This document shows, in pieces, positions 13,762 to 38,891 of a DNA stretch of 64,000 nucleotides (position 1 is its first letter; every line of letters starts with the position of its first letter). Source of the DNA: Solirubrobacterales bacterium 67-14. GTDB lineage: Bacteria; Actinomycetota; Thermoleophilia; Solirubrobacterales; 70-9. The stretch lies in assembly GCA_001897355.1 (NCBI GenBank), contig MKST01000011.1:273504-337503 (forward strand). The letters run 5' to 3'. Made by a program: the position numbers and the translations under genes. A model generated the notes under the pieces. That model had not been told where the DNA came from. It made no database searches and worked only from the letters and a program-made list of their open reading frames with translations.

Positions 13762-13790
13762 ATGCGCACAACGAATTCGTTGCCGCGCAT
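13762..13790. promoter_or_regulatory. Near-perfect palindrome, candidate IclR operator
   Basis: Around the centre CAACGAATTCGTTG the arms extend to ATGCGCA and CCGCGCAT, giving a 29-nt palindrome with one extra base. Read on the minus strand, its left half is ATTCG-TTGTG-CGCAT, which fits the (G/A)TTCG-N5-CGCA(C/T) form I recall for PcaR-type IclR operators. It lies 17 nt upstream of the CoA-transferase start, and an IclR gene ends this cluster. Confidence 0.6.
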
Positions 13791-14662: not shown

Positions 14663-15384
14663 GCGCCTTCGACCCGGCCGAGCTGATGACGGTCGCCGCG
14701 GCGCGTGAGCTCCGCGACGGCCAGAGCGTGCTGGTCGGGGTCGGCCGGCCCAGCCACGCGGCGATCCTCGCCAAGCGGACCCATTCCCCTGGCCTGATCC
14801 TGGTCTACGAATCGGGGACGATCGACACCGACCCGGAGAACATCCCCCTCTCGATCGGCGACCCCGAGCTGGCCGCGACTTCGGTCTCGACCGTTTCCCT
14901 GCCGGACATCTTCAACTACTGGCTGCAGCCCGGGCGGATCGACGCCGGCTTCCTCGGCGCCGCCCAGATCGACCGCCACGGCAACCTCAACACGACCGTG
15001 ATCGGCGGCTACGACCATCCCAAGGTGAGGCTGCCCGGGGCCGGCGGCGCCCCCGAGATCGCCCGCTCCTGCAGCGAGATCGTGGTCACCCTCCCCCACT
15101 CGAAGCGCACCTTCGTCGAAGGGCTCGACTTCACGACCTCGCTCTGCCGGGGCGAGGGCGGCAGCATGGCCGTGGTGACCGACCTCGCCGTGCTGCGGAC
15201 CAGCGACCGCCACGACGAGCTCGAGCTGACCGAGACCTTCCCCGGGGTGTCGGTCGAGGACGTACTGGAGGCGACCAGCTGGGAGCTCAAGGTCGCACCG
15301 GAGGTCAGCACCGTCGCCGAGCCCTCCGACCGGGAGCTGGAGGTGCTCAGGTCCCTCGGGTCGAAGCCGAAGGCGGTGCGGTGA
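14659..15384 (+). CDS. CoA-transferase subunit B (PcaJ/GctB/IpdB-like)
   Basis: The 241-residue beta subunit contains the YESGTIDTD segment (E51), where class I CoA-transferases carry the catalytic glutamate that forms the glutamyl-CoA thioester. It begins with GTG in a GTGA overlap with subunit A and ends in a GTGATGATG overlap with the thiolase, so three proteins are translated in a chain. Presence of E51 argues for true transferase rather than only hydrolase activity, though IpdAB-like action cannot be excluded. Confidence 0.85.
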   Translation: MSAFDPAELMTVAAARELRDGQSVLVGVGRPSHAAILAKRTHSPGLILVYESGTIDTDPENIPLSIGDPELAATSVSTVSLPDIFNYWLQPGRIDAGFLGAAQIDRHGNLNTTVIGGYDHPKVRLPGAGGAPEIARSCSEIVVTLPHSKRTFVEGLDFTTSLCRGEGGSMAVVTDLAVLRTSDRHDELELTETFPGVSVEDVLEATSWELKVAPEVSTVAEPSDRELEVLRSLGSKPKAVR

Positions 15385-16592: not shown

Positions 16593-16690
16593 GCGAACCA
16601 GAGCCGCGACCGCCCCTGAAGCCGCTCCATTCGGTGCAGCCGGCGCAGTGGTCGACGACCTTCCGCCGAGCGACCGATAAGAATGCGCCC

Positions 16691-17533
16691 ATGAGTCCGG
16701 CAGACGGACAGTTCGTGGACCCCACCTCACGCGACCGGGGGCCGGTGATCAGCGGCGAACCAGTCGAGCGTTCCAAGGACTTCGTCAAGTCACTGGAGCG
16801 AGGACTGGCCGTGATCCGCGCGATGGGGTCGAGCAACGACCCGATGACCCTGAGCGAGGTCGCGGCGCGGGCCGGCATTCCCCGGGCCGCCGCCCGGCGG
16901 TTCCTGATCACGCTCAGCGAGCTCTCCTACGTGGAGAGCGACGGCCGGCTGTTCCGACTCACCCCGCGGGTTATGGAACTCGGCTACGGCTACCTTTCCG
17001 GCCTCTCGCTGCCGGACATCGCCATCCCCCACGCCGAGTGGCTGGTCAACGAGACCAAGCAGCCCTCCGAGGGCGCGATCCTCGACGGCGACGAGATCGT
17101 CTACGTCTTCCGCGTGCCCGGCCCCTACATCATGTCCTCGAACGTCAACGTCGGCGCCCGGATGCCGGCCCACGCCACGGCGCTCGGCAAGATGCTCCTG
17201 GCCGGCCTCTCGGACGACCGCTTGGACGAGCTCCTGAAGAAGATCAAGTTCGAGTCCTACACCGAACGCACGGTGACCGATCCGGCTCGCTTGAAAGAAG
17301 ACATCGAGCGGATCCGCGAGCTCGGCTACTCGCTGGTCGACCAGGAGTTGGAGCCCGGGCTCTGCGCGATCGCGGTCCCGATCAAGACCCGCAAGGAAGA
17401 CGAGCCGGTGGCGATCAACGTCTCCTCCAGCATCGTCCACCACACGCCCGAGTCGATGGTCGAGGAGATCCTGCCGCCCCTGCGGACCGCAGCCGACCAG
17501 ATCGCCGCCGACCTGGCCAGCACCGGCGCCTAG
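16691..17533 (+). CDS. IclR-family regulator, PcaR/PobR-like
   Basis: This 280-residue regulator has a winged helix-turn-helix at about residues 35-95 (SLERGLAVIRAMGSSNDPMT onward) and an IclR effector domain (100-275). The LELGYGYLS-like region, VGARMPAHATALGKMLL and GYSLVDQELEPGL resemble the PcaR/PobR/CatR branch that senses aromatic-pathway acids. It lies 98 nt after the thiolase on the same strand. It probably controls the CoA-transferase operon and could also bind the GTTCG-N5-CGAAC sites farther along; both are inference. Confidence 0.9.
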   Translation: MSPADGQFVDPTSRDRGPVISGEPVERSKDFVKSLERGLAVIRAMGSSNDPMTLSEVAARAGIPRAAARRFLITLSELSYVESDGRLFRLTPRVMELGYGYLSGLSLPDIAIPHAEWLVNETKQPSEGAILDGDEIVYVFRVPGPYIMSSNVNVGARMPAHATALGKMLLAGLSDDRLDELLKKIKFESYTERTVTDPARLKEDIERIRELGYSLVDQELEPGLCAIAVPIKTRKEDEPVAINVSSSIVHHTPESMVEEILPPLRTAADQIAADLASTGA

Positions 17534-20758: not shown

Positions 20759-21883
20759 TCAGGCCCGCTCGTCGGCGACCATGATCACGTCCGACCGGTG
20801 CCAGGAGACGATCGCCGGCTTGCCCGGTTCGAGCCCGTCCTCCTGGAACCTCGCGTACTCGCGCTGGCCCAGGTCGATGCGCAGGTCGGTCTCCTCCGAG
20901 ACCGTGGCATGCACTTGGTGGTTGGAGCCGTTGAAGACCACGTGGCTGATCGTCGCCGTCACCTCGTCGGTCCCGGCCTCGCCCTCCCCGGCCCGATCGG
21001 CCGGCCGGATGTCGAGCATCTTCGGGACCAGCACCGCGGCGAAGGTCGAGCTGCCGTTACTGGCGCGAGAGGCCGCACCGGTGACCGCGATGTCCGGGCC
21101 GCGGACCTCGATCATGTCGCCCCGACGGGCGTTCTCGCCGCTGATCACCGTGCCGGCGTTGATGAACTCGGCCACGTACCGGCTGGCCGGCGCCCGGAAC
21201 AGCTCCTCGGGCGTGTCCACCTGGACGATGCGGCCGTCCTCCATCACGGCAACCCGGTCGGCGATCGCGCAGGCCTCCTCCTGGTCGTGGGTGACGTGCA
21301 CGAAGGTCGTGCCCGAACGCTCCTTGAGCCGGACCAGCTCCTCCTGCATCTGCCGACGCAGCTTCAGGTCCAGCGCGCCGAGCGGCTCGTCGAGCAGCAG
21401 CAGGGCCGGCTCCTTGGCCATCGCCCGGGCCAGGGCGGCACGCTGAGCCTGCCCGCCCGAGAGCTCGGAGACCTTGCGCTTGTTGTACCCCTCCAGGCCG
21501 ACCAGGCTGAGGACCCGGTCCACGCGCCCCTGGCGCTCCTTCTTCGAGATGCCGTCCATCTTGAGCCCGAAGCCCACGTTCGATTCCACGTTCATGTGCG
21601 GGAACAGGGCGTAGCCCTGGAACACGGTGTTGGTCGGCCGTTTGTACGGCTTGAGGCCGGTCACGTCACGGCCCTCGATCTCGACCCGGCCCTGGTCCGC
21701 CTCGACGAAGCCGCCCATGATCCCGAGGGTGGTCGTCTTGCCGCAGCCGCTCGGCCCCAGCAAGGCGAGCAGCTCTCCCCTTTCGGCCTGGATCGAGACG
21801 CCTTCTTCGTCGGGCCCCAGCGCGTACTGCTCCTGTCCGGGGTACTTCTTCCGCAGTCCTTGGCAATTCAACGTGGTCGTCAT
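20759..21883 (-). CDS. ABC transporter ATPase, PotA-like
   Basis: The 374-residue ATPase has Walker A GPSGCGKTT (43-51), the signature LSGGQAQRAALARA, Walker B ALLLLDEPLGALD and a C-terminal TOBE domain (about 240-370). It powers the importer made with the fused permease and the binding protein, most like spermidine/putrescine systems. ATG 21883 is preferred because it overlaps the permease stop as ATGA; TTG 21907 would add eight residues. Confidence 0.93.
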   Translation of the reverse strand: MTTTLNCQGLRKKYPGQEQYALGPDEEGVSIQAERGELLALLGPSGCGKTTTLGIMGGFVEADQGRVEIEGRDVTGLKPYKRPTNTVFQGYALFPHMNVESNVGFGLKMDGISKKERQGRVDRVLSLVGLEGYNKRKVSELSGGQAQRAALARAMAKEPALLLLDEPLGALDLKLRRQMQEELVRLKERSGTTFVHVTHDQEEACAIADRVAVMEDGRIVQVDTPEELFRAPASRYVAEFINAGTVISGENARRGDMIEVRGPDIAVTGAASRASNGSSTFAAVLVPKMLDIRPADRAGEGEAGTDEVTATISHVVFNGSNHQVHATVSEETDLRIDLGQREYARFQEDGLEPGKPAIVSWHRSDVIMVADERA

Positions 21884-23562
21884 ATCCTCTGCTCTTTTCT
21901 TCCCCAAGTTCGGTCCCGGCCGAATGCGACCAGCGCACCCAGCAGGATGATCGTGAATGAAGCGACGATGATCACCGCCGCCAAGGCCATCAGCTCAGGC
22001 GAGATCTGGAACCTGATCGCGCTGTATATGTAGAGGGGCAGGGTGACCTGCGACCCGGTGACCAGGAAGGTCATGATGAACTCGTCCATCGACAGCGCGA
22101 AGCAGACCATCGCCGCTGCGATGATGCCCGGCAGCGCCTGCGGCAAGGTGATGTATGCGAAGGCGCGGATCGGCTTCGCCCCGAGGTCCATCGCCGCCTT
22201 CTCCTGGGCCAGGTCGAAACCCTCCAGCCGGACCAGGATCAGCAGCGTCGCGACCGGCAGGGTGAAGATCACGTGCGCCAGGACGATCGACCAGAGGCCC
22301 CGCTCGACGCCGATCGCGTTCATCCCGATCACCACCCCAAGCCCGAGGATGACCGGCGGCAGCAGCAGCGGCATCGAGAGCAGGAACAGGTTCACGTTGC
22401 GGTACTTGCCCTTGGTCCGCGCCATCTGCACCGCGGCCAAGGTTCCGAGGACGACGCTGGTCAAGACCGCGATGAGTGCGATCTGCAGGCTCAGCATCAG
22501 GGCCTGGATCAGGTTCGGATCGTCGAAGACGGCGCTGACCCAGTGCAGGGTTATGCCCTTGATCGGGAAGCCGACGATGTCGGACGCGTTCAGCCCGAAC
22601 AGGATCAGCAGCACGACCGGGATGTACAAGAAGAGGATGAAGGCGATCGCGTAGCCCAGCAGGAACGGGGAGCGCTCCCGGCTGTACTGCCGCGTGTACT
22701 CGCCGACCGACTGGACCCCGCCGCCGGAAGCCACCCTCAGCACGATCAGCAACACGGCGAAGCTGGCCAGGAGGATGAAGCCGAGCGCGGCACCGAAGCC
22801 CCACTGCAGCGAGCCGCCGAACTGGTTGACGATCAGGTTCGAGAAGAAGATCCCGTTCGTCCCGCCGATCAGGGTCGGCGTCACGTAGTCGCCGGCCATC
22901 ACGATGAAGCACATGATGAAGCCCGCGATCAGGCCCGATTTGCAGAAGGGGATGATCACGGCCGTCAGGCTGCGCCAGGGCCGCGCCCCGAGGTCGCTGG
23001 CCGCCCGGAGCAGCCGCACGTCCAGGCGCTCCAGCGAGATGTAGGTCGTCAAGAAGGCCATCGGGAACAGCAGGTAGACGAAGGTGATCAGGATCGCCGG
23101 ACGGTCGTAGGCGAAGAACTCGACCGGTGACGAGGCCAGATGCAGACGCATCAGCGCCTGGTTGATCACGCCGTTGTCGCCGAACAGGTTCTGCCAGGCG
23201 AAGACCCGGACCAGGTAGCTGGTCCAGAACGGCACGATCGCGGCGATCAGCCAGACCGGCCGCATCGACGGCCTCGCCCGTACCGCCACGAAGTAGGCGA
23301 ACGGGAAGGTCAGGAGGACCGTGACCAACGCGGAGAGACCGACGAACTTGAAGGTGTCGAAGAGCGTCCGGAGGTAGGTACCTCCGGACGCAAATGCCTT
23401 CGTGTAGTTGGAGAATGTCCATTGATGGACGATCTCGCCGTTGTGGGTCGGCCAGAACGAGTAGACCGCCATCACCAGGAGCGGCAGGATGAAGCCGACG
23501 ATCACGACCAGGATCGCCGGCACCGTCATGGCGCGATTTGCCAGTGGATCTTTGCTACCCAT
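21880..23562 (-). CDS. Fused ABC permease (PotB-PotC in one chain)
   Basis: The 560-residue inner-membrane protein consists of two permease domains. The N half (about 1-275) resembles PotB, with the EAA-type loop RLLRAASDLGARPWRSLTAV. The C half (about 300-555) resembles PotC, with the second EAA loop EKAAMDLGAKPIRAFAYI. Each half has about six helices. Most Pot-type importers use two separate chains. The gene lies 83 nt after the binding protein and overlaps the ATPase by 4 nt. Confidence 0.92.
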   Translation of the reverse strand: MGSKDPLANRAMTVPAILVVIVGFILPLLVMAVYSFWPTHNGEIVHQWTFSNYTKAFASGGTYLRTLFDTFKFVGLSALVTVLLTFPFAYFVAVRARPSMRPVWLIAAIVPFWTSYLVRVFAWQNLFGDNGVINQALMRLHLASSPVEFFAYDRPAILITFVYLLFPMAFLTTYISLERLDVRLLRAASDLGARPWRSLTAVIIPFCKSGLIAGFIMCFIVMAGDYVTPTLIGGTNGIFFSNLIVNQFGGSLQWGFGAALGFILLASFAVLLIVLRVASGGGVQSVGEYTRQYSRERSPFLLGYAIAFILFLYIPVVLLILFGLNASDIVGFPIKGITLHWVSAVFDDPNLIQALMLSLQIALIAVLTSVVLGTLAAVQMARTKGKYRNVNLFLLSMPLLLPPVILGLGVVIGMNAIGVERGLWSIVLAHVIFTLPVATLLILVRLEGFDLAQEKAAMDLGAKPIRAFAYITLPQALPGIIAAAMVCFALSMDEFIMTFLVTGSQVTLPLYIYSAIRFQISPELMALAAVIIVASFTIILLGALVAFGRDRTWGRKEQRI

Positions 23563-23645
23563 CTTCTAGATCAATCCCGTGGCCCTGCCGACCGAGTATC
23601 TCTTACCTCCTGGACTCGCATGCGATCTGGTGGTAGACGTCTCCG

Positions 23646-24857
23646 TCACTGACCCGTGATCTTGTCCCAAGCCGCGTTCCAGGCCTGGTTGTCATCCGGC
23701 AGGCCGAGCAGCGCGATCTGCTTCACGGTGTCGGGCTTGTCGGCGCCGATCGCCTTGGCCAGCTTGGCGGAATCGCCGCCGCGATCGATCGCCCGCTTGA
23801 CCGCATCCTGGTTTGCCTGGGCGAAGCCGTACTGATCCCACATGTAGGTCAGCAGCTTCTGGTCGCTGGCGAACCAGTCGATGTACTTGAGCGCGTTCTC
23901 CCGGTTCTTGGCGCCCTTGACCAGCATCGGACCGTCGATCCAGCCTGCGGTCCCCTGCTCGGGGATCACGTTCTTCGCCGTCTCGGAGCCGGCCTGCTGG
24001 TTGATCAGGAGGGCCGAGCTCATGTCCGGGCTGTAGCCGATCCACCCTTCCTCGGTCCGGATCTGGTTGCGGAACTGGGGCACCGCGTACGGGTTGACCT
24101 GGAAGGGCTTCAGCTCGATCAGCCGGTTGGTCGCGTTCTCCAGCTCGGCGCCCTTCATCTGGAGGATCTTGGTCAGCGGGACGCCCTGCTCGATGCCGGC
24201 CATGGAGAGGATTTCCACCGCGCCGCCCGAGAGGATGACCTTGTTGTCCGGGATCGACGGATCCCAGAGCTGCGACCACGAGTACGGCGGGGTCGGCTGG
24301 TAGTCGACATTGGTGTTCCAGATCATGCCCAGCGGCGCCCACATGTTCGGGTAGAGGAGCACCTTGTCCTTGTCCATGACATAGGGGAACTCGGTGTTCT
24401 CCTTGAAGACCGGGTAGAGCTGCTTGGACGAAGGGATGTCCTTCAGGTCTATGGTCTCGATCAGGTTGTTCTTGTAGTAGGTGGGCGTCCACCCCGCGTT
24501 GGCGAAGACGATGTCGAAGGAGCCCGCGCCGCCGGCCTTGAGCTTGGTGAACATGGTCTGGTCGGCGTCCGCGACGACCGTGTTCAGCTTGATGTCGGGA
24601 TGAGCCTCTGCCCAGAGCTTGTTTTCCTCGGAATCGACGTAGCTGGCCCAGCTCAGGACGTTCACCTCGCCGCCGGACGAGGAACCAGCGCCACAGGCGG
24701 CCAGGAAGGCGCTGCTGCCGCCGATCGCCAGCGCCACGCCGGCCGACTTGCCGATGAACTGCCGGCGCGTGGTGCGGCCGAACAGGCTCTTGTCCTTGTC
24801 TTCAGATGGACTCTCGATGATGCCTCCGGAGTCGCTCTTGGTCTTGCTTTCGCTCAT
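23646..24857 (-). CDS. Polyamine-type ABC substrate-binding lipoprotein
   Basis: This 403-residue protein of the PotD/PotF kind has a twin-arginine signal (RTTRRQFIGKSAG, R31/R32) and a lipobox FLAAC with C55, so it is probably exported folded by Tat and lipidated. The mature part starts EVNVLSWASYVDSEE, typical of spermidine/putrescine-binding proteins. It is the first gene of the six-gene operon. GGAGG lies 8 nt before the ATG, and tandem dyads lie about 300 bp upstream. Confidence 0.92.
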   Translation of the reverse strand: MSESKTKSDSGGIIESPSEDKDKSLFGRTTRRQFIGKSAGVALAIGGSSAFLAACGAGSSSGGEVNVLSWASYVDSEENKLWAEAHPDIKLNTVVADADQTMFTKLKAGGAGSFDIVFANAGWTPTYYKNNLIETIDLKDIPSSKQLYPVFKENTEFPYVMDKDKVLLYPNMWAPLGMIWNTNVDYQPTPPYSWSQLWDPSIPDNKVILSGGAVEILSMAGIEQGVPLTKILQMKGAELENATNRLIELKPFQVNPYAVPQFRNQIRTEEGWIGYSPDMSSALLINQQAGSETAKNVIPEQGTAGWIDGPMLVKGAKNRENALKYIDWFASDQKLLTYMWDQYGFAQANQDAVKRAIDRGGDSAKLAKAIGADKPDTVKQIALLGLPDDNQAWNAAWDKITGQ

Positions 24858-25206
24858 TTTCCACCCTCCGTTTGTTCTTCACTGCCATGTTTGACGAGAC
24901 GTGCTGCTGGGTTACTGCGTTGCGGTTCAGCTGCCGGACCTGGTCGGGCCAGCCATGGAAATCCGGGATCGAGGCCGCCGTCGGCGGCCGTCCTCCCAGC
25001 CGGGATCGTCGAAGTGCGCAGGGGGCCGTGCCCGTCCTCGGGTGACCGTACGGCCCTTTCGGGACCGATCGATCCGGACACTTTCCTCGCGGTGGCGGTG
25101 GACGCCAACTCAACTCCTCCGACTTCGATAGCAACCATGGCTAGAACACAAAATGTTCGTTACCCGAACAAAGTCTCGTATTGCGTACATTCTCTCATAT
25201 CTCGGA
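24858..25206. other. Intergenic region with importer promoter
   Basis: This 349-bp region lies between the SDR stop and the importer's binding protein. It contains the ribosome-binding site, a long leader without a credible gene, and the tandem dyads at 25155-25188. Short open frames on both strands here overlap each other and lack ribosome-binding sites. The leader of about 290 nt between the dyads and the start codon may hold an unseen regulatory element. Confidence 0.6.
25155..25188. promoter_or_regulatory. Tandem dyad operator, copy A (importer operon)
   Basis: GTTCG-TTACC-CGAAC (25155-25169, perfect; flanked T...A) is followed exactly 19 bp later by the weaker TCTCG-TATTG-CGTAC (25174-25188). 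The same pair with the same spacing occurs at 32427/32446 and 35881/35900. It is placed upstream of the ABC importer operon. Confidence 0.65.
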
Positions 25207-26022
25207 CTACCCGTGTTGCATTTCCGGGCCGAGCACATCCGGCCCTGGCAGCAGCGAGAGCGAGCCCCCGTCGACCGGCACCGAGGCACCGGTCATGAAG
25301 GACGAATCGTCAGATAGAAGGAAGGCCACCGAGGCCGCGATCTCCGCCGGATCGGCGCAGCGCTTCATCGCCTGGAGCCCGTCCATCAGCTCTCGCTGCA
25401 GCTCGGGATCGGGGGCATCCTCGACCTCCCGCTCGACCAGCGGGGTCAGCGTCGCGCCCGGCAGGATCGCGTTGGCGCGGATCCCCTGGGTCGCGTAGTC
25501 GACGCTGATCGCCCGGACGATCGCACCGACCGCCGCCTTGGAGATCGCGTAGATGCCGATCTTTGGGTAGGAGGCGACGTCATGGATCGAGCTGGTGCAG
25601 CAGATCGCCCCGCCGCCCAGTTCGAGCATGTGCCGGATCGCGTGCTTGCAGGTGAGGAAGACGCCCTTGGTGTTGACCGCGATCGTCCGGTCGAACCACT
25701 CGTCCGAGGTGTCGGCCAAGAGCAGCGGCGGCGTCTCGATGCCCGCGTTGGCGTGGACGCCGTCCAGCCGCCCGTGCCGGGCGACGATGCCGTCCATCAA
25801 CTCGGCGACCGAGCCCCCGTCCGATACGTCGCAGTGTGCGAACTCGATCCGGGGCACCGAGTCGGCCAGGGCCGGGCCCAGATCCGTGTCGATATCCGCC
25901 ACGACCACGGTCGCCCCCTCGGCAGCGAGCCGCCTCGCGGTCGCCTCGCCGATCCCGCTCGCCCCGCCGGTGACCACCGTCACCCTGCCCTCGAACCTGC
26001 CCTGCCCTGGAACCTCAGCCAT
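25207..26022 (-). CDS. Short-chain dehydrogenase/reductase
   Basis: The 271-residue classical SDR has the cofactor motif TGGASGIG, NAG in HANAGIE, catalytic Ser in CTSSIHD and YAISK for the Tyr/Lys pair. It uses NAD(P) on a secondary alcohol or ketone of unknown identity. The DIDTDL segment after beta-2 hints at NAD preference. ATG 26022 overlaps the end of the upstream dehydrogenase by 8 nt, and AGAGG precedes it. It is the last gene of the aminotransferase operon. Confidence 0.9.
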   Translation of the reverse strand: MAEVPGQGRFEGRVTVVTGGASGIGEATARRLAAEGATVVVADIDTDLGPALADSVPRIEFAHCDVSDGGSVAELMDGIVARHGRLDGVHANAGIETPPLLLADTSDEWFDRTIAVNTKGVFLTCKHAIRHMLELGGGAICCTSSIHDVASYPKIGIYAISKAAVGAIVRAISVDYATQGIRANAILPGATLTPLVEREVEDAPDPELQRELMDGLQAMKRCADPAEIAASVAFLLSDDSSFMTGASVPVDGGSLSLLPGPDVLGPEMQHG

Positions 26023-26953
26023 GGTCAACCTCTCTTCTCGCGGCTTCCGCCTTCATCAGTTGCTCGTCCCGCCAGAGGACTCGTGATCCCCACTCGTCCA
26101 GCGGCAGAATCTCCCGCCGGCCCGCCTCCGCCCGGGCCACCAGCTCCGGCGTCCAGGGGTCGTCTTGCCCCCGCTCCGCCCCCATCCGCTCGTAGGCGGC
26201 GCCCATCTTCTCGGCGTGGGAGGCGATGCCGCCTCTCGTGTTCAGGTCGGCAGTCTCGAAGGGCCCGGTCAGAGCCCAGCGCCGGCCCAGGCCGCCGCGG
26301 ACCGCGAGGTCGATCTCGTCGACCGAGGCCACCCCGTCGCGGAGCAGGCAGTACGCCTCGCGCAGGATCGCGCCCTGCAGGCGGTTGACCACGAAGCCCT
26401 CGGCCTCGGAGCGGACCAGGATCGGGCTCATGCCGACCGCGGCGAACATCTCCCGCGCCGACTCGACCGCCGTCTCAGCCGTGAAGCCGGCCGGGACCAG
26501 TTCCACCACCGGCAGCAGGTAGGGCGGGTTGGTCGGGTGGGCGACCAGGCAGCGTTCGGCACCGGCCAGCCCGTCGAAGAGGCTGGTCGGCGAGAGGGCC
26601 GACGTCGAGCTGGTCAGCAGGGCGTCGCCCGGAGCCGACTCCAGCACCGCCCGGTAGACCTCCCGCTTGAGTTCGAGCCGCTCGGGGGCGCACTCGATCA
26701 CCAGCTCCGCCTCGCCCACCGCCCAGGCTTGTTCGGCACCGGCCTCGACCCGCTCCGCGACCACGTCCACGGGCTCGCCGAGCAAGCCGTGCGCATCGAG
26801 GCGGCCGAGGCGCTCCTGGATCTCCGCCTCGACCGCCTCGACGCGCACCGGGTCGGGGTCGACGACCCGCACCGACCAGCCCGCCCGGGCGAAGGTGACC
26901 GCCCAGGCGACGCCGATCGACCCGGCGCCGACGATCCCGACCCGTCTGCTCAA
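26015..26953 (-). CDS. 3-hydroxyacyl-CoA dehydrogenase-family, CRYL1/carnitine dehydrogenase-like
   Basis: The 312-residue NAD-dependent dehydrogenase has VGIVGAGSIGVAWAV at the N terminus and the catalytic-His block RCLVAHPTNPPYLLP. Its length and the single HAD-NAD plus short C-domain layout match L-gulonate 3-dehydrogenase (lambda-crystallin) and L-carnitine dehydrogenase rather than beta-oxidation HAD. It probably oxidises a beta-hydroxy acid without CoA. TTG 26953 overlaps the gcvPB stop as TTGA. Confidence 0.87.
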   Translation of the reverse strand: MSRRVGIVGAGSIGVAWAVTFARAGWSVRVVDPDPVRVEAVEAEIQERLGRLDAHGLLGEPVDVVAERVEAGAEQAWAVGEAELVIECAPERLELKREVYRAVLESAPGDALLTSSTSALSPTSLFDGLAGAERCLVAHPTNPPYLLPVVELVPAGFTAETAVESAREMFAAVGMSPILVRSEAEGFVVNRLQGAILREAYCLLRDGVASVDEIDLAVRGGLGRRWALTGPFETADLNTRGGIASHAEKMGAAYERMGAERGQDDPWTPELVARAEAGRREILPLDEWGSRVLWRDEQLMKAEAARREVDHG

Positions 26954-28500
26954 GGGCTGGTCCGCCCCTTCGGTCGGTCGCCGTGCTTGCGCTTGTAGGC
27001 CCGCCAGGTGGTCGCCCACTGGTCGGGCTCGTCGAGCCTCGATCCATCGACCGGACCGATCGCCTGGTTGTGCGGTGCCGTCTTGACGATCTCGGGGTCC
27101 TCGTAGGCCTCGCGACAGACCTGGGCGAGGACGTCGATCCAGTAGTCGAGATCCTCGATCGGCCAGGTCTCGCCCGCCTCCGGGGTGATCGGCTCGGGCA
27201 CCAGCCAGGGCTCGTGGCTCAGCCATGGTGCGTCGACCCCGAAATCGACCATCCGGTTCTGGACGTCGAAGACGGTCACGCCGGTGTCCTCCTGGAGCTT
27301 GCCGAGGCTGTACCTCGTCATCTCGAGCCGGCGGCTCTTGATGTCCGGGTGGCTGATGCTCAGGCCCGGGATCTCGAGCAGGCGCTTCTCCATGTAGTTG
27401 TTGGCCAGGACCGACATGTCGGAGGCGAAGCGGATGCCCTCGGCGCCCATCGATCGCACCCAGGAGTAGGCCTTGACGATCTGGGGGACATTGCCCCAGT
27501 ACTCGCGAACGCGCCCCACGCTCTTCGGCGCCTCGTCGACGTCCTCGAGCGAGTAGGAACCACCCTGCTCGCGGACCAGGGGCCGCGGCATGTAGGGCTC
27601 GAGCTCGGACGAGCATCCGTATGCGCCGACCGCCGGCCCACCGCCGCCGAACGGCGCAGCAAAGGTCTTGTGGAGCATGAACATGCAGGCGTCGAAGCCG
27701 AGTTCACGGGCTCGCAGCTTGCTCATCGCGCCGTTGAAGTTGGCGTGGTCGTAGAAGCAGAGCCCGCCGGCCTCGTGGACCAGGTCCACCCACTGCTTGA
27801 TCTCGGGGTTGTAGATCCCCATGTCGTCCGGGTTGCCGATCATCATGCCCGCGGTCCGCTCCGAGACGGCCGCCTCGAGCGCCTCCAAGGGCGGGTAGCC
27901 GTCCTCGCCCAGCATCAGGGTGACCACCTTGAAGCCGGCCGCCGCGGCGGTCGCGGCGTTGCAGGGATGGGTCTGGATCGTGGTGATGATCTCGTTGCGC
28001 TGCTCGAGCTCGCCGCGGTCCGCGTGGTAGGCCCGGGTCGTGACCGCGTTGACGTAGGCGGCATCGGCCCCGCCGCCGGCCTGGAACACGAACTGGTCCA
28101 TGCCGGAGAGCTCGCAGAGGATCTCGCTCATGCCATGAAGCACCGCGAGCACGCCCTGGATGGTCTCGGGATCCTGCCCGGGATGGAGCTCCGCGATGTG
28201 ATCGGCGGAGATCCGCTCACCCAGCAGCGGCGAGTACTTGATCGTGCAGGTGCCGAACAGGTTCACCCCCATCATGCCCAGGGTCTCCTGGGCCAGATGT
28301 ATGTAGTGGCGCTGGACCTCGGCCTCCGACAGCTCCGGCAGGCCGGCCCGTTCCCCGCGCTTCATCGAATCGGGTACGAAGCCGGCCGTGTCGGCGTCAC
28401 CGGCCGCCGGCGGGATGAACCCGCGGCGCCCCGGGCTGCCCATCTCCATCACCACCGGCTCGTCCCAAACCGGCGCGTGATACCTGCGCAGGCCGCTCAC
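26950..28500 (-). CDS. gcvPB: Glycine dehydrogenase (decarboxylating) subunit 2
   Basis: The 516-residue C-terminal half of the glycine cleavage P-protein has the PLP lysine in MLHKTFAAPFGGGGPA (K278), the FQAGGGADA loop and the MIGNPDDMGIYNP block. With GcvPA it decarboxylates glycine and passes an aminomethyl group to a lipoyl carrier. The GTG start overlaps gcvPA by 4 nt. No gcvH, gcvT or lpd lies in the window, so this may be a paralogue dedicated to this catabolic cluster. Confidence 0.92.
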   Translation of the reverse strand: MSGLRRYHAPVWDEPVVMEMGSPGRRGFIPPAAGDADTAGFVPDSMKRGERAGLPELSEAEVQRHYIHLAQETLGMMGVNLFGTCTIKYSPLLGERISADHIAELHPGQDPETIQGVLAVLHGMSEILCELSGMDQFVFQAGGGADAAYVNAVTTRAYHADRGELEQRNEIITTIQTHPCNAATAAAAGFKVVTLMLGEDGYPPLEALEAAVSERTAGMMIGNPDDMGIYNPEIKQWVDLVHEAGGLCFYDHANFNGAMSKLRARELGFDACMFMLHKTFAAPFGGGGPAVGAYGCSSELEPYMPRPLVREQGGSYSLEDVDEAPKSVGRVREYWGNVPQIVKAYSWVRSMGAEGIRFASDMSVLANNYMEKRLLEIPGLSISHPDIKSRRLEMTRYSLGKLQEDTGVTVFDVQNRMVDFGVDAPWLSHEPWLVPEPITPEAGETWPIEDLDYWIDVLAQVCREAYEDPEIVKTAPHNQAIGPVDGSRLDEPDQWATTWRAYKRKHGDRPKGRTSP

Positions 28501-29897
28501 CGGACCGCCTCCGTCAGGGCTTCGCCGAGCAAGGCGATGTCCTCGTCCTGGTGGACCTCGGTCACGCAGATCAAGGCGCTCTGGCCCAGCTCGGGGAAAC
28601 GGCCCGAGAGGTCGAGGCCGCCGAAGATGCCCTGCTCGCGGAGCGAGGCGTTGATCTCGGCCACCGTCTTGCCGGTGCCGTTGAAGTCGGCCACGAATTC
28701 CTTGAAGAAGGCGTCGCCGAAGCGGACCTCGACGCCCGGGATGCGGGCGACGGTCTCGGCGGCCTGATGACTGCGACCGAGGATCGTCCGCCCGATCTCC
28801 TCGAAGCCGCGTGGGCCGAGCAGGGCCATGTAGACCGAAGCGGCTATCGCCCAGAGGTAGGTCGAGTTGCCGGTCCAGTCGTTGCCCAGCTCGCGTGAGC
28901 CGTAGGAGGTCTGTTCGAAGAGGGTCATCGAAAAGCCGATGTCCCCTTCGGCCGTGTGTGCCGCGGAGAGGCAGAGGGTCGGGTACTGGCGGGCGTAGCG
29001 CTCCTCGTCCCGGGAGGCGATGAAGCCGCTGGCGCCACCGCCGCAGTTCATGTGCACCCCGAGCGACTGGATCGTGCCGACCACGATGTCCGCGCCCCAG
29101 GCCGACGGCGAGGCGGTGACGCCGAGCGCGATCGGGTCGACGCCGACGATCACCTCCGCCCCCGCTTCCTTGGCCAGGCGGGCGGCCTCCGGCCCGCTTG
29201 CCTCGAAGGTGCCGAGGAAAGACGGGTTCTCGAGGTAGATGGCGGCGGTCCGGTCGGAGAGCTTGGACCGGAAGTCCTCCAGGTCGAGGCAGCCGGTCTC
29301 CCAGTCGGTCGCGACTTCGACCAGCTCGATGTGGTGCTCGAGCTCGGGCAACCCGGCGTAGGTCTCGATCACCGCGCGGCGTTCCGGGTCGAGCGACGCG
29401 GCGACCAGCACCTCCGAGCGCCCGTTGATCCGCTGGGCCATCAGCATCGCGTGGCCGGCAGCGCAACCCCATGAGTAGACCGGCAGCCCGACGAAGTCGA
29501 GTTCGAGCAGTTCGCCGAGCTGGGAGCAGAACTCGAAGAGCGACTGGGTCCGCCCGAGATCCGAAGAGGGGGTGCCCCAGATGTTGTTGAGGAACTCGGC
29601 CCGGCCGACGATCTCGTCGACCACCGCCGGCACGTAGTGGGGCCAGCAGCCACCGCCGAGGAAGCTTGCCTTCGGTTTCACGTCGCGGCTCAGCAGGTCG
29701 TCCATGTGGCGCGAGAGATCGGCTTCGGAGACCAGCGCCGGCGGCAGCTCCAGGCCACCCGCAAGTCGGTGCTCAGCCGGGATCTGCTCGAAGAGCTCCT
29801 CGACATCCGATGCCCCGACCACGTCCAGCATGTGCTCGACCGTGGCCTGGTTCGAGTTGGCCATCAGGTGATGGGGCTCGATCTTGCTCACGTCCAT
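28497..29897 (-). CDS. gcvPA: Glycine dehydrogenase (decarboxylating) subunit 1
   Basis: The 466-residue N-terminal half of P-protein contains the conserved FLGGGCWPHYVPAVVDEI, FEFCSQLGELL and VGTIQSLGVHMNCGGGASGF blocks. It pairs with GcvPB to build the pyridoxal-dependent decarboxylase. It begins 13 nt after the AcoX-like kinase gene and is transcribed with it. The canonical type has YxPYQAE-like segments; here this region reads NNIWGTPSSDLGRTQSLFEF, a noticeable departure, so the substrate could differ from glycine. Confidence 0.88.
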   Translation of the reverse strand: MDVSKIEPHHLMANSNQATVEHMLDVVGASDVEELFEQIPAEHRLAGGLELPPALVSEADLSRHMDDLLSRDVKPKASFLGGGCWPHYVPAVVDEIVGRAEFLNNIWGTPSSDLGRTQSLFEFCSQLGELLELDFVGLPVYSWGCAAGHAMLMAQRINGRSEVLVAASLDPERRAVIETYAGLPELEHHIELVEVATDWETGCLDLEDFRSKLSDRTAAIYLENPSFLGTFEASGPEAARLAKEAGAEVIVGVDPIALGVTASPSAWGADIVVGTIQSLGVHMNCGGGASGFIASRDEERYARQYPTLCLSAAHTAEGDIGFSMTLFEQTSYGSRELGNDWTGNSTYLWAIAASVYMALLGPRGFEEIGRTILGRSHQAAETVARIPGVEVRFGDAFFKEFVADFNGTGKTVAEINASLREQGIFGGLDLSGRFPELGQSALICVTEVHQDEDIALLGEALTEAVR

Positions 29898-29910
29898 TCC
29901 CTCTCCTCCA

Positions 29911-31038
29911 CTAGGCCGCCACCTCGTAGATGAGCGACTCTTTTCTGCCGATTCGCACCGGGCGATACCCGGTGAAGCGCCTGTCGATGTCCGTATCTCC
30001 GGTGTCGACCGTCAAGGGCGAGGATCCGAGCTCGATCAATTTCTGCAGGTCGGCGACCACGATCAGGTCGCCGGGGTCGACCCGCTCCAGGGTCTTGGGC
30101 CCGATCTGCTGGTTGCCTCGCCCCAGCAGCGACCCTTGGCCGCCGATCACACCCATGACCAGGTGGACGCGACCGGCCTCGGCGGTCAGCTCGTCCAGCT
30201 CGGCCTCGGTCACGTCGCCGGCGATCAACTCCCGGTCGCGGACCACGTCGATCGCCAGCGGGTCGGACTGGAAGCCGAGATGGCGACGGACCCAGCCCAT
30301 GGTCGAACCGGGGCCGATCACGTATGTATCGCCCGGGACCATCTCCTCTACCACCTCGAGGCAGGCGCCCCGCATGGCCGCGGCGTCACGCCCGCTCGAT
30401 CGCGACTTCGCGGCCAGCAGGCGGGAGCGCGCCTCCGGCACGGAGACCGTGCCGTAGAGGGTGGTCGTGGCCTTGGGATCGTCGGCGTCGCGATCGACCA
30501 CTTCCGCCTCGTCCAACCGTACGGACCCGGGATCGTGGCCCAGGTACTCGGCGACCACGTCCGCCGCCGCGGCCGGGCTCCTCGCGAAACAGCCCGAATG
30601 CATCTTGACGCCGGTCGGGATGCCCACCACCGGGATCCGGCGGCCGATCGACTCGCGAATCACCCTGGCGGTGCCGTCGCCGCCGGCGAACATGATCAGT
30701 TCGACGCCGGAGTCGGCCATCGCCAGGGCCGCATCGCGGGTGTCGTCGGGTGAGGTGTGGCAGCCGAACCGCCCGGTCACCTCGGTCTCGAAGCCGTGCT
30801 CGCGGGCCACCTTCTCGCCCATCGCCCCGCCCGCCACGGTCAGGGTGAAGCCCTGGCCCCGCAGGCGGTCGAGCGCAACCCCGGCTCTCTCGGCCGCCAT
30901 CTCGGTCGCGCCGAGCTCCCTGGCCCGCCGCTGAAGCTCGTCCCCGTCGGTGCCGCGCAGCCCGACCTTGCCTCCCATCCCGGCGATCGGGTTGACGATC
31001 AACCCGATCCGGCGGCGGAGGGAGGTCGGGCCGGCCAT
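29911..31038 (-). CDS. ATP-NAD kinase/AcoX-like protein
   Basis: The 375-residue protein opens with RIGLIVNPIAGMGGKVGLRG and carries the nucleotide motif GGDGT (119-123) and IPTGVKMHSGCFA, which are characteristic of the AcoX-like branch of the NAD kinase superfamily. AcoX genes accompany acetoin and other catabolic operons, and their reaction is not established. It sits between the aminotransferase and gcvPA, 4 nt after the aminotransferase stop. Confidence 0.87.
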   Translation of the reverse strand: MAGPTSLRRRIGLIVNPIAGMGGKVGLRGTDGDELQRRARELGATEMAAERAGVALDRLRGQGFTLTVAGGAMGEKVAREHGFETEVTGRFGCHTSPDDTRDAALAMADSGVELIMFAGGDGTARVIRESIGRRIPVVGIPTGVKMHSGCFARSPAAAADVVAEYLGHDPGSVRLDEAEVVDRDADDPKATTTLYGTVSVPEARSRLLAAKSRSSGRDAAAMRGACLEVVEEMVPGDTYVIGPGSTMGWVRRHLGFQSDPLAIDVVRDRELIAGDVTEAELDELTAEAGRVHLVMGVIGGQGSLLGRGNQQIGPKTLERVDPGDLIVVADLQKLIELGSSPLTVDTGDTDIDRRFTGYRPVRIGRKESLIYEVAA

Positions 31039-31042
31039 CGCC

Positions 31043-32443
31043 TCAGGCCCTGCCCAGTTCCTTCGCGACCTGGTCGGCCGAATCGCGGGCGACCGAGACC
31101 ATCTGGTCGATCTCCGCCTCTTCGATCACGAAGGGCGGTGAGAAAGAGATCGTGTCGGCCTCCGGGAGGGCCCGCGAGATCACCCCCCGCTCCAGGCAGG
31201 CCTGGTTGATCCGCCGCCCGACCCCGAGCGCCGGGTCGAAGCGGACCGCCGGATCCTTCTCGGCCACGAACTCGACCGCGGCGACCAGGCCCTTGCCGCG
31301 CACCTCGCCGACCAAGGGGTGGTCGGCGAAGGCTTCGCGCAGGTTGGAGCGCAGGCGTTCGCCCCGGACGGTGACCTGGGAGATCAGGTCCTCGTCTTCG
31401 ACGATGTCGAGGTTGGCCATCGCCGCGGCGGCCGAAAGGGGGTGGGCACTGTAGGTGTATCCGTGGCCGAAGGCAAGGCCGCTGTCCGAGTGCTCGGCCA
31501 GCACGTCCCAGACCTTGCCGGTGACCAGGCAGGCGGAGAGCGGCACGTACCCGGAGGTGATCCCCTTCGCGACCGTGATCAGGTCGGGCTCCATTCCCAT
31601 CACCGTCGACCCGAACCACTCGCCGAGACGGCCGAAGGCGGAGACCACCTCGTCGGCGATGAGCAGGACGTCGTGTCGGTCGAGTACCTCCTTGATGGCG
31701 GGGAAGTAGCCATCGGGAGGAATGATGACGCCCCCGGCCGCTTGGATCGGCTCGGCGATGAAAGCGGCGACGGTGTCCGGCCCCTCGTCCAGGATCAGCT
31801 GCTCGAGGTCAGCGGCGAGCCGGGCCGAGAAGTCGGCGTCGCTCTCCCCCGGCTTCGCTTCCCAGAGCCGCGATGGAGTCGTGGTGTGCCGGATGAACGG
31901 CAACGGCAGGTCGAAACCCTCGTGGAGGTTGCTGAGTCCGGTCAGCCCGGCCGTGGCGATGGTCACCCCGTGGTAGCCGCGACGGCGGGAGATGACCTTC
32001 TTCTTCTCCGGCCGCCCGAGGGCGTTGTTGTAGTACCAGACCAGTTTGATCTGGGTGTCGTTCGCGTCCGAGCCGCTGTTGCCGTAGAAGACCTTGGAGA
32101 TCGGCACCGGGGCGAGCTCGGTCAGGCGCTCGGCCAGCCGGGCGGGGGTATCGGTCGCCATCGACGAGAAGGCGTGGTAATAGGGCAGCTTCAGGGTCTG
32201 GTCGTACAGCGCCTGCGCGATCCGCTCCCGCCCGTAGCCGACGTTGACGCACCAGAGCCCGGCCATGGCGTCCAGGTACTCGGTGCCGGCTTCGTCCCAG
32301 AGGGTCGAAGCCTTGCCGCGGACCATCATCCGCGGACCTGTTCGCTGATGCTCTCCGAGCACCGTGAAGGGGTGAAAGACGTGCTTCCGGTCGAGTTCGG
32401 AAGCCGCCGGCATGTCTGGGGGATTTGTTCGGCTTGCGTTCAT
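31043..32443 (-). CDS. Class III (omega) aminotransferase
   Basis: The 466-residue PLP enzyme has [34 protein letters not shown]264 in [13 protein letters not shown] and Schiff-base K293 in [13 protein letters not shown]. Relatives are omega-amino acid:pyruvate or putrescine/taurine aminotransferases, giving an aldehyde from a terminal amine. That aldehyde would suit the divergent aldehyde dehydrogenase. ATG 32443 is preferred; TTG 32488 is open upstream but would cover the operator. It is the first gene of a six-gene operon. Confidence 0.9.
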
Positions 32444-32460
32444 TTGCTCGTTATGCGAAC
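32427..32460. promoter_or_regulatory. Tandem dyad operator, copy B (aminotransferase/aldehyde dehydrogenase)
   Basis: GTTCG-GCTTG-CGTTC (32427-32441) and GCTCG-TTATG-CGAAC (32446-32460) are 19 bp apart, as at the other two loci. The second lies between the divergent aminotransferase and aldehyde dehydrogenase genes; the first falls inside the aminotransferase 5' end if ATG 32443 is used. A shared regulator could control both directions. Confidence 0.6.
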
Positions 32461-32506
32461 CTTTACATATTGACGGAGGTTTGTCCAATCGAAGGAGAAA
32501 TGGCCG

Positions 32507-33976
32507 ATGGCAGCAACCGAAACCAGTCCCCTCGACAGCCGGCTCTGGCGCGAGGATCTGTTCATCGACGGCCGATGGGTCGAATCCGATTCGGGTGAAC
32601 GGCTGACGGTCACCGACCCCGCGACCGGCGAGGAGATCGCCCGGGTCTCATCGGCCGGTGCGGCCGAGACCGAAGCCGCGATCGACGCCGCCGCGCGGGC
32701 GCTGCCGGCCTGGGCGGGGCTCACCGCCAAGCAGAGGGCCGGCATCATGCGGGACTGGTTCGACCTGATCGTCGAGCACGCGGAGGAGTTGGCGGCGATC
32801 CTCGTCCTCGAGCAGGGCAAGCCGCTCGCCGAAGCGGTCGGGGAGATCCACTACGGGGCAGGCTTCCTGGAGTGGTACGCCGAGGAGGGCAAGCGCGCCT
32901 ACGGCGACGTGGTGCCGACCAACCAGGACGGGCGCCGGATCTTCGCGATCAAGCAGCCGGTCGGCGTCTGCGCCGCGATCACCCCCTGGAACTTCCCCTC
33001 GGCGATGATCATGCGCAAGGTCGCCCCCGCCCTCGGCGCCGGCTGCACCATCGTGGTCAAGCCGGCCGAGCAGACCCCCCTCTCTGCCACCGCCCTGGCC
33101 AAGCTGGCCGAGGAGGCCGGAGTCCCGGCCGGGGTGCTCAACGTGGTCACCGGTGACCCGGCCGCGATCGGCGGCGCCATCACCTCCGACGCCCGGGTGC
33201 GCCTGCTCAGCTTCACCGGGTCCACCCCGGTCGGCAAGCTGCTGATGTCACAGTGCGCCGAGACCGTCAAGCACGTCTCGCTGGAGCTCGGCGGCAACGC
33301 GCCGCTGATCGTCTTCGACGATGCCGACCTCGACGCCGCAGTCGAGGGGGCGATGGCCTCCAAGTTCCGTAATGCCGGCCAGACCTGCGTCTGCGCCAAC
33401 CGGCTGATCGTCCAGGACGGCGTCTACGACGAGTTCGTCGAGAAACTGGTCGCGGCAACGGAGGCACTCACCGTCGGCTCCGGATTCGAGGAAGGGGTCG
33501 ACCAGGGCCCGCTGATCGACGACGCGGCGGTGGCCAAGGTCGAGTCCCACATCGCCGACGCGACCAGCCGCGGGGCCGAGGTCGCCACCGGCGGCACCCT
33601 CCACGAGAGAGGCGGAACCTGGTTCGCCCCGACCGTGCTGACCGGGGTCGGCCCGGAAATGCGGATCGCCTCGGAGGAGACCTTCGGGCCGGTCGCTCCC
33701 GTCTTCCGCTTCGACAGCGAGGAGGAGGCGCTCCGGATGGCCAACGCCACCGAATCCGGCCTCGCCGCCTACTTCTTCTCGCGCGACGTCGGCCGCACCT
33801 GGCGCTTTGCCGAGCGACTCGAGTTCGGCGTGGTAGGAGTGAACACCGGAGTCATCTCATACGAAGGGGCACCCTTCGGGGGTGTCAAGCAATCCGGCCT
33901 GGGAAGAGAGGGTTCGCGGTTCGGGCTCGACGACTTCCTGGAAATCAAGTACGTCTGTCTGGAGGGAATCGAATGA
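32507..33976 (+). CDS. Aldehyde dehydrogenase, succinate-semialdehyde type
   Basis: The 489-residue NAD(P)-dependent dehydrogenase has N162 in [10 protein letters not shown]260 in LELGGNAP and catalytic C294 in [11 protein letters not shown]. The CVC pair and the [13 protein letters not shown] segment resemble GabD. It would oxidise the semialdehyde made by an omega-aminotransferase to an acid. GGAG lies 10 nt before the ATG. It overlaps the SDR gene by 4 nt (ATGA). Confidence 0.92.
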
Positions 33977-34743
33977 AGTCACTCGAAGGGCGCACCGCGA
34001 TCGTCACCGGTTCCGCGCAAGGCATCGGCCGCGGGATCGCCGAGGTGCTCGGGCGCGAAGGTGCCAAGGTAGTGATCGCCGACATCAACGGCGAGCTGGC
34101 CGAGGCCACCGCCAGGCAGCTGGAGGACGAGGGGATCGAGGCGATCGGGGCCGGGGTCGACGTCACCGACACCGACAGCCTCGACGGGCTGGTCGCCAGG
34201 ACGGTCGAAGAGTTCGGATCGATCGACATCCTCGCCGCCAATGCCGGGATCTATCCGGCCGACCCGATCGAGGAGGTCGACCGGGCCGGCTGGGACCGGG
34301 TCATGGACCTCAACGTGGCCGGCGCGTTCTTCTCATTCCAGGCCTGCCTGCCGCAGATGCGCGAGCAGGGTTATGGCCGGGCCGTCTTCACCTCTTCGAT
34401 CTCCGGGCCCTACACCGGTCATCCCGGCTACTCGCACTACGGCGCCTCGAAGGCCGCGGTGCTGGGTTTCATGCGCTCGGCCGCGATCGAGACCGCCCGG
34501 CAGGGGATCACCGTGAACGCCGTGCTGCCCGGCAACGTCCAGACCCCGGGCCTGGACGACGCCGGCGAGGAACACAAGCAGGCGATGATGGCGTCGATCC
34601 CGATGGGCGAATTCGCGACCCCGGCGGACATCGGCTGGGCGGTCCGTTTCCTCGCCTCGGAGGAGGCCCGGTACATCACCGGGCACCCGCTCGTGGTCGA
34701 CGGCGGACAGGTGCTGCCGGAGACGCCGCTGGCGCTCCACTGA
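33973..34743 (+). CDS. Short-chain dehydrogenase/reductase
   Basis: The 256-residue classical SDR has TGSAQGIG, AANAGIY, Ser in TSSISGPY and the active-site YGASK. It is close to 3-oxoacyl-reductase or sugar/polyol dehydrogenase types. Acidic DING after beta-2 suggests NAD use. It is coupled to the aldehyde dehydrogenase and followed after 18 nt by an EamA transporter, so it likely reduces or oxidises an intermediate of the same route. Confidence 0.9.
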   Translation: MKSLEGRTAIVTGSAQGIGRGIAEVLGREGAKVVIADINGELAEATARQLEDEGIEAIGAGVDVTDTDSLDGLVARTVEEFGSIDILAANAGIYPADPIEEVDRAGWDRVMDLNVAGAFFSFQACLPQMREQGYGRAVFTSSISGPYTGHPGYSHYGASKAAVLGFMRSAAIETARQGITVNAVLPGNVQTPGLDDAGEEHKQAMMASIPMGEFATPADIGWAVRFLASEEARYITGHPLVVDGGQVLPETPLALH

Positions 34744-34761
34744 GCGGCAGGCCGGCCCCAC

Positions 34762-35604
34762 TTGATCTCGGTCCTGCTCGGCGCCTCGGCGGCACTCTGC
34801 TGGGGTGCCCAGAACGTCTTGCTGGCCGGGGTCGCCCGCCGGGGAGACCCCGACGTGGCGGCGCTCTGGTACGTGACCTACATGGCCCTGCTGGCCGCCC
34901 CCTTCGCGCTCGCGACCGGGGATCTCTCCGACCTGGCCGACGGCACGATCGGCTACTTCGTCCTGGCCGGGCTGGTGCAGGCCTTCGGGATGATCGCCTT
35001 CACCCGGGCGCTCGGGATCGGGCCGGTGGGAATGCTGACCGGGCTGCTCTCGCTCGAAGGCTCCGGGGCGGCGATCCTCAGCTTCGTCGCCGGCGAGTCG
35101 GTCGGCCTGCCGGTCGCGGCGGGCCTGCTGCTGGCCAGTGTCGGCGGCGTGCTGCTGGTCGCCTCCCGCTCGGGTGGATCGCCGAACCGCGGCGTAGGCC
35201 TGACCCTGGCCGCGGTCGCCTGCTTCGCGGCCAGCCTCTTCTGCCTAGGCCACTACGAGGCCAACCTCGCGCTGACCATGCTCGTCTTCAACGGAGCCTC
35301 GTCCCTCGCCATCGCCGGCCTGCTTAAGGTGCAGGGACGGAGCCTGGCCACCGGCCGCTTCGAATCGGCCCGGTCCGAGTCGGTGATGATCCTGATCGCC
35401 GCCCTGGGCCTGCTCGGCCTGGTCTCCTTCGCCTACGGGTCGAGGCAGGGCTCGACCGCGGTGACGGCGGTCCTCTCCGCCCAGTTCGGGGCGGTCGCCG
35501 CGATCGGCGGCTACTTCCATTTCGGCGAGAAACTCGCCCCCAGCCAGATCGCCGGTTTCGCGATCCTCGCCTCGGGGGTCAGCCTGGTCGCGGCGTTCGC
35601 CTGA
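34762..35604 (+). CDS. EamA-family small-molecule transporter
   Basis: This 280-residue membrane protein has about ten helices in two EamA repeats (1-135 and 145-280). It belongs to the DMT superfamily, which moves amino acids, amines or other metabolites. The start is TTG with poor ribosome-binding signal, so the first few residues are uncertain. It is the third gene of the aldehyde dehydrogenase operon and ends convergently 12 nt from tatA. Confidence 0.83.
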   Translation: MISVLLGASAALCWGAQNVLLAGVARRGDPDVAALWYVTYMALLAAPFALATGDLSDLADGTIGYFVLAGLVQAFGMIAFTRALGIGPVGMLTGLLSLEGSGAAILSFVAGESVGLPVAAGLLLASVGGVLLVASRSGGSPNRGVGLTLAAVACFAASLFCLGHYEANLALTMLVFNGASSLAIAGLLKVQGRSLATGRFESARSESVMILIAALGLLGLVSFAYGSRQGSTAVTAVLSAQFGAVAAIGGYFHFGEKLAPSQIAGFAILASGVSLVAAFA

Positions 35605-35616
35605 CCGCGGCTTCGT

Positions 35617-35838
35617 CTAGGCGACGTCTGCCTTGGCCGGCTCCGCGGCCTTTTCGACCTCGGCCTGGGCCGGGCTGCCCTCGTCCACACTGTCTTGGCG
35701 GCTGTTCAGCCCGGACTTGAATTCACGAAGTCCCTTGCCGGCCGAGCGTCCCAGTTCCGGCAACTTTCGGGGACCGAAGATCACCAGCAGCAAGATCAGG
35801 ACGATCGCTATTTCCATGGGACCGATGTTCGGAATCAC
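35617..35838 (-). CDS. tatA: Twin-arginine translocase subunit TatA
   Basis: The 73-residue protein has one N-terminal helix (PMEIAIVLILLLVIF), the FGPRKLPELGRSAGKG hinge and amphipathic helix typical of TatA/E, and an acidic Ala-rich tail. The GTG start at 35838 has AGGAG upstream; the longer frame from 35910 lacks Tat features. It sits inside the catabolic island without tatB/C. The Tat-signalled binding protein at 24857 could use it. Confidence 0.9.
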   Translation of the reverse strand: MIPNIGPMEIAIVLILLLVIFGPRKLPELGRSAGKGLREFKSGLNSRQDSVDEGSPAQAEVEKAAEPAKADVA

Positions 35839-35880
35839 TTTGCCTCTCCTCGTTGGATTCAGCGCAGAGCATAGCCCCTG

Positions 35881-35914
35881 ATTCGTATTACGCGCAAACG
35901 TTCGATTCACGAAC
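35881..35914. promoter_or_regulatory. Tandem dyad operator, copy C (tatA upstream region)
   Basis: ATTCG-TATTA-CGCGC (35881-35895) and the perfect GTTCG-ATTCA-CGAAC (35900-35914) are 19 bp apart. They lie 43-76 bp upstream of the tatA start, between tatA and the end of the flavoprotein gene. The arrangement equals copies A and B. Confidence 0.6.
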
Positions 35915-38884: not shown

Positions 38885-38891
38885 TGTACTA

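Follow-up and report, generated by a model that had tools for sequence, protein, structure and literature searches.

The closest described counterparts of the sites reported here are operators of IclR-family regulators. Table 1 of PMC8222616 gives GTTCGC-N3-GCGAAC as the motif of Corynebacterium glutamicum PcaR, and the same source predicts that 94 IclR orthologous groups bind tandem sites 18-22 nt apart, a layout interpreted there as the binding of a tetramer to one face of the DNA. The operator of Pseudomonas putida PcaR, GTTCGATAATCGCAC, as given in PMC12455658, holds a GTTCG-N5-CGCAC dyad, and that protein belongs by name to the NCBIfam group discussed below. PcaU and PobR of Acinetobacter baylyi, likewise of the IclR family, are described in PMC8222616 with boxes of alternating direction (three in PcaU), and TtgV (PDB 2xrn, 2xro), a further member of the family, binds and bends its operator according to the account in PMC8222616.

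The 64,000-nucleotide stretch of DNA analysed here (the window) carries three strong tandem dyads of this kind and a fourth, weaker one. We regard it as highly probable that these pairs are the four operators of a single PcaR/PcaU/PobR-type regulator of the IclR family, encoded at 16676..17533 on the plus strand and proposed to bind all of them.

Tandem dyads in the window and in related genomes

A preliminary description of this DNA had reported paired TGTTCG-N5-CGAACA dyads at 25155/25174, 32427/32446 and 35881/35900, and all three pairs are present at these positions with a 19-bp period (site 1, 25155..25188; site 2, 32427..32460; site 3, 35881..35914). Two copies of GTTCG-N5-CGAAC set 19 bp apart specify 20 positions, of which each pair matches 17. 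As had been claimed, each also contains at least one near-perfect copy: sites 1 and 3 both have a dyad with perfect arms, and site 2 has 9/10. The outer T and A of the reported motif are kept in only part of the six dyads; the inner C and G of GTTCGC-N3-GCGAAC are not kept in all window dyads. The common spacing is unlikely to arise by chance, as had also been argued: in 200 dinucleotide shuffles of the window, 19-bp pairs scoring at least 17 averaged 0.01 (maximum 1) against three observed, and with spacings of 15-25 allowed the shuffles averaged 0.075 (maximum 2), again against three. The runner-up at 19 bp in the window, at 35900, has a dyad in common with site 3 and scores 14; the next scores 13, and the best window pair at any other spacing (10-40 bp) scores 16. 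A third weak dyad follows site 1 in the same 19-bp step (25174-25207), forming an overlapping register of 12.0 bits in the matrix introduced below.

The preliminary description had also summarised the sites as YTCG-N5-CG taken twice. This holds at all three pairs but is not diagnostic, given that 24 places in the genome match it (10 forward, 14 reverse), the three sites among them, against 4 for the reversed version; it is therefore unfit for use alone. The fuller pattern drawn from sites 1-3, TTCGN5CGN2CN5YTCGN5CGNAC, occurs at exactly three places in the 3.2-Mb genome (~95% complete), and its reversed control gives zero matches in the same ~95% complete genome. A matrix built from 21 operators outside this genus ranks site 2 first in the window (36.7 bits), followed by site 3 (28.4), site 1 (24.4), the fourth site (18.4), the overlapping register at site 1 and then a match of 3.7 bits. 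With 100 column-permuted matrices the window maximum averages 7.2 bits and reaches 17.5, so that sites 1-3 stand clear of it and the fourth site just barely. This ranking is partly circular, because the window's own consensus guided the choice of training sites; the comparisons with random stretches given below are free of that circularity. Scoring of our own genome with the matrix covered the fetched stretches, in which one further match (L073, C2:70216; 20.5 bits) outscores the fourth site, lies inside a coding sequence and was taken as chance. The operator consensus of the relatives starts with GTTCGCATTGCGAAC, which equals the published C. glutamicum motif, and the window dyads fit its outer five bases per side to varying degree. 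Judged by the PcaR dyad or its five-base arms, the sites are of PcaR type.

Site 1 stands about 300 bp before the binding-protein gene of a polyamine-type ABC importer (ATPase, fused permease and binding protein; 20759..24857, minus strand), whose best models are PotA, PotB/PotC and PotD, every one below its cut-off. In G011, a genome of the same genus, an additional SDR gene is found at this place. The window segment between site 1 and the binding-protein gene (25032-25127) is colinear with the beginning of that SDR gene (65% identity over 96 bp, E 0.14); it may be an SDR remnant, which would account for the long leader of the binding-protein gene. Site 2 separates a class III aminotransferase from an aldehyde dehydrogenase. 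The aminotransferase leads the minus-strand genes (25207..32443) and is followed by AcoX/NAD-kinase-like, GcvPA-like, GcvPB-like, 3-hydroxyacyl-CoA-dehydrogenase-like and SDR genes; one candidate for its start, ATG 32443, is inside site 2. The plus-strand genes (32507..35604) encode the aldehyde dehydrogenase, an SDR and an EamA transporter; the first of these is of the succinate-semialdehyde type, with TIGR01780 above cut-off. An amine or amino acid substrate is suggested by the importer together with the aminotransferase and this dehydrogenase; the VOC gene, CoA transferase and thiolase described in the next section make a carboxylic or aromatic intermediate possible as well.

Two further observations concern the gene content of this region. 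The GcvPA-like, GcvPB-like and AcoX/NAD-kinase-like genes lie side by side (26950-31038), and an alignment-based search of genome contigs with the AcoX-like protein gave at least 80 loci; among those listed, relatives of AcoX and GcvPA occur together in at least 44 from several phyla, and 5 of the 80 loci listed have an operator match of at least 10 bits. Operator-like matches of 22.0 and 26.6 bits are found at the proteobacterial AcoX/GcvPA loci L109:9932 and L144:6173. Beyond site 3, a diaminopimelate/ornithine-decarboxylase-like domain is fused to a glyoxalase-type domain (37011-38855).

The preliminary description had expected that such pairs would not occur at random frequency and would be conserved upstream of orthologous operons, and neither expectation was contradicted in the relatives. 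G011 has an identical site 2, a similar site 3 in the same place and a diverged counterpart of site 1 at the corresponding place (L049:12872); place and core are kept although much of the flank differs. The site between aminotransferase and aldehyde dehydrogenase is found again in other genera and families. Outside the genus, we considered genes sharing at least 60% identity with the aminotransferase, aldehyde dehydrogenase or CoA transferase A. Their upstream regions comprise 32 distinct places, and 23 of these hold a tandem dyad with at least 15 of the 20 positions; among 3000 random stretches of equal length drawn from these loci, the share is 2.4%. Several of these operators come from near-identical genomes (e.g., L230/L231), and the loci picked for the regulator after the pattern was known (L224-L226, L228-L247) have the dyad at 11 of 15 places. 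As for the 9 places below this threshold, the stretches at L051 and L053 were cut next to an operator that had been located via the adjacent gene, L240 lies at a contig end, and dyads score 13-14 at L057, L066, L235 and L253 and 10-11 at L234 and L237. With loci L227 and L248-L254 left out of the count, 22 places in the relatives have the 19-bp spacing and 0-7 have each other spacing of 12-30 bp; in the window pairs and in these 22 places alike, the palindrome centres thus lie within the 18-22 nt of IclR-family tandem sites. At the aminotransferase gene pair itself, a 15/20 dyad is present in 9 of the 12 orthologue genomes (G000, G011, G046, G065, G075, G079, G085, G388 and G398), and G246 has one of 14/20. 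A degenerate pattern, used solely to find extra loci, matched 64 of 399 genomes, many of them probably by chance. Operator-like sites also stand 0.3-1.2 kb before ABC importer ATPase genes in other genera (L227:9098, L051:5727, L225:3955); these ATPases are 33-37% identical to that of the window, and importer control may therefore recur in the regulon.

The fourth site and the CoA-transferase operon

The fourth tandem dyad, 13736..13769 (GTACACTCTGCGGACAAAGTAACGCTATGCGCAC), was absent from the preliminary description. It lies between a VOC gene and the CoA-transferase/thiolase/IclR genes, and was met in a mismatch-tolerant genome search, in which it has two mismatches to the genome pattern. 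About 20 genome places reach that level, and the loosened pattern (up to three mismatches) matches at 240 places, its reversed control at 203. Because so many places match equally well, the fourth site is singled out by its place and its conservation: 32 of its 34 bases are kept in G011. We propose that it acts both on the VOC gene and on the operon of the regulator itself, which would make it an autoregulatory operator.

On the minus side, the two-domain gene of the glyoxalase/dioxygenase superfamily (VOC; 12739..13665, GTG start 13665 assigned by eye) is divergent from the CoA-transferase operon and scores 69.7 bits with Glyoxalase PF00903. Its relatives occur in 7 of the 51 fetched loci, and an operator match of at least 12 bits precedes it in 6 of these (L049, L058, L224, L226, L249 and L251); the match at L226 is weak (13.1 bits), and L249 and L251 entered the set because of the pattern itself. 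The sole exception among the 7 loci is L062, where the VOC gene has no preceding match of at least 12 bits. On the plus side (13808..16592), CoA-transferase subunits A and B are followed by a thiolase nearest to 3-oxoadipyl-CoA thiolase, and tandem dyads also precede the CoA-transferase/thiolase genes that adjoin the regulator's relatives in other genomes. Measured against the models of the beta-ketoadipate (pca) pathway, all three proteins fall short: 491.1 bits against the PcaF cut-off of 597 for the thiolase, and 27.7 against 128.5 (PcaI) and 53.1 against 243.55 (PcaJ) for subunits A and B. By these models the targets do not include pcaIJ and pcaF, which would mark a pca regulon; as to a ring-cleavage gene, its other mark, the VOC gene belongs to the superfamily named above, and no specific NCBIfam model reaches its cut-off.

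Site 3 and a probable accessory tatA

A tatA gene (35617..35838, minus strand; TatA_B_E 64.4 bits) is preceded by site 3 at a distance of 42 bp; its GTG start at 35838 was assigned by eye, and ATG 35817 is the alternative. The genome has three tatA-family genes. Forty-five tatA-family places were found in 18 genomes, and 30 of them were compared as loci; in the main alignments of these 30, the window tatA shares 62% identity with its positional counterpart in G011 and no more than 54% with the others, and therefore looks like an accessory copy. A possible link to the importer is offered by its binding protein, which carries a twin-arginine signal and a lipobox (TTRRQFIGKSAGVALAIGGSSAFLAACG) in the sequence TTRRQFIGKSAGVALAIGG...LAACG, read straight from the translation rather than predicted by a program; the G011 relative of this protein keeps TTRRQF.

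Could sites 1, 2 and 4 be true operators and site 3 a remnant, or a site acting on a target other than tatA, such as a small RNA or a leader? Among the 30 tatA loci, a strong operator match is found just at the G000 and G011 copies in this cluster, the best other match reaching 11.0 bits, as this reading would have it. Against it speak the scores of site 3 (28.4 bits) and of its G011 counterpart (33.3) and the position of both shortly before tatA; in addition, the gene on the other side of site 3 in the window, an FAD oxidoreductase gene, points its end rather than its start towards the site. We consider this reading unlikely, and take site 3 as a probable operator of tatA. That TatA and a Tat substrate are supplied under joint regulation is then plausible on the evidence of two genomes of one genus, and the regulon may take in export capacity for its own binding protein. 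In a tentative evolutionary scenario, to which we give rather less than even credence, a PcaR-type regulator moved from aromatic to amine catabolism and captured an accessory tatA, giving a regulon that supplies its own export component. If this is true, induction of the importer with its Tat-dependent binding protein would go hand in hand with a rise in Tat export capacity, and an accessory tatA under a catabolic regulator would exemplify export capacity matched to an induced Tat substrate.

The regulator and its relation to known systems

The protein encoded at 16676..17533 belongs to the IclR family, with domain scores of 57.1 bits for HTH_IclR (cut-off 22) and 124.1 bits for IclR_C (cut-off 24), both taken on the longer ORF 16364-17533. 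Its best NCBIfam model is TIGR02431 (PcaR/PcaU/PobR), at 284.5 bits against a cut-off of 284.75 and hence 0.25 bit short, and the next best model reaches 133.1 bits. The nearest solved chains are 2ia2 and 8eju, the latter named as a Pca regulon protein. Three IclR-family proteins are encoded in the genome; where they align with this one, the other two share 27% and 23% identity with it. Within the 399 genomes of the class, an aminotransferase orthologue (E <= 1e-140) is present in 12 and the regulator (E <= 1e-50) in 34, and the two occur together in 11 (hypergeometric 4e-12, with our own genome counted and relatedness uncorrected). G280 has the aminotransferase and an operator match of 9.5 bits, with no regulator at E <= 1e-50 among its best candidates (up to six scored per genome); G353 has both genes and an operator match of 14.5 bits. 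An IclR relative of at least 40% identity is found in 38 of the 51 fetched loci, most of which were fetched for that relative.

Another candidate within the window is a TetR-family regulator (38889-39545), which is encoded near site 3 and has TetR_C_31 above cut-off and BetI-type models below theirs. TetR proteins often bind palindromes of this kind. Nevertheless, it was rejected as the binder of these dyads, a role we find very improbable, for close relatives are absent from the other 11 genomes with the aminotransferase: 7 of them (including G011, 74% complete) give no match at E <= 1e-10, the remaining 4 hold relatives of at most 36% identity, and the 51 fetched loci give no match at E <= 1e-3. 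Reading the pairs as structural or repeat DNA common to these places (a mobile repeat, methylation site or terminator), as their common sequence and fixed layout might suggest, is hardly credible when the fuller pattern occurs at just three genome places, G011 keeps place and core of the sites while much of the flank differs, and the sites precede gene starts and accompany one regulator group. The IclR protein, which the preliminary description had not named, is most likely the regulator of the pairs. The earlier proposal itself, that one regulator binds two adjacent sites and joins the importer, the aminotransferase/aldehyde dehydrogenase genes and tatA into a regulon, is supported by the comparative evidence.

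What can be read directly from the DNA is where the sites lie, how they are conserved and that they accompany this regulator; how they work is described here as a model. Two dimers, or one tetramer, would occupy the adjacent dyads, which lie on the same DNA face at a distance of about two helical turns, and we infer a cooperative tetramer. The predicted targets are the regulator's own operon (CoA transferase and thiolase) with the divergent VOC gene, the polyamine-type ABC importer, the divergent aminotransferase and aldehyde dehydrogenase operons, and the accessory tatA, which may help to export the importer's twin-arginine binding protein. The effector is probably a pathway intermediate, perhaps a 3-oxo acid by analogy with PcaR, and both repression and activation at the four promoters are compatible with the sequence. 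Overall, our analysis provides an operator, a regulator and a target set amenable to testing in a high-GC lineage, and it ties an uncharacterised set of aminotransferase, aldehyde dehydrogenase, GcvP-like, AcoX-like and VOC genes to one putative switch, which could aid the search for their substrate.

Compared with known systems, the predicted regulon is of a type already known, and its putative amine-type targets and tatA are the unusual part. TtgV is distant from the regulator in sequence (49.8 bits). Of the two TtgV structures, we take 2xro to hold operator DNA. The likeness to C. glutamicum PcaR extends to the dyad type, the nearest regulator group and the CoA-transferase and 3-oxoadipyl-CoA-thiolase-like neighbours, whereas the targets predicted here are chiefly an amine-type importer and genes of transamination. 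P. putida PcaR (PMC12455658) likewise has other targets than the regulon predicted here. In contrast to the boxes of A. baylyi PcaU/PobR, as set out in PMC8222616, the present sites consist of four half-sites making two dyads. Finally, an extra TatA beside another is described in PMC4148689 for paired TatA proteins, e.g., those of Campylobacter jejuni, whereas the present tatA is placed behind a catabolic operator.
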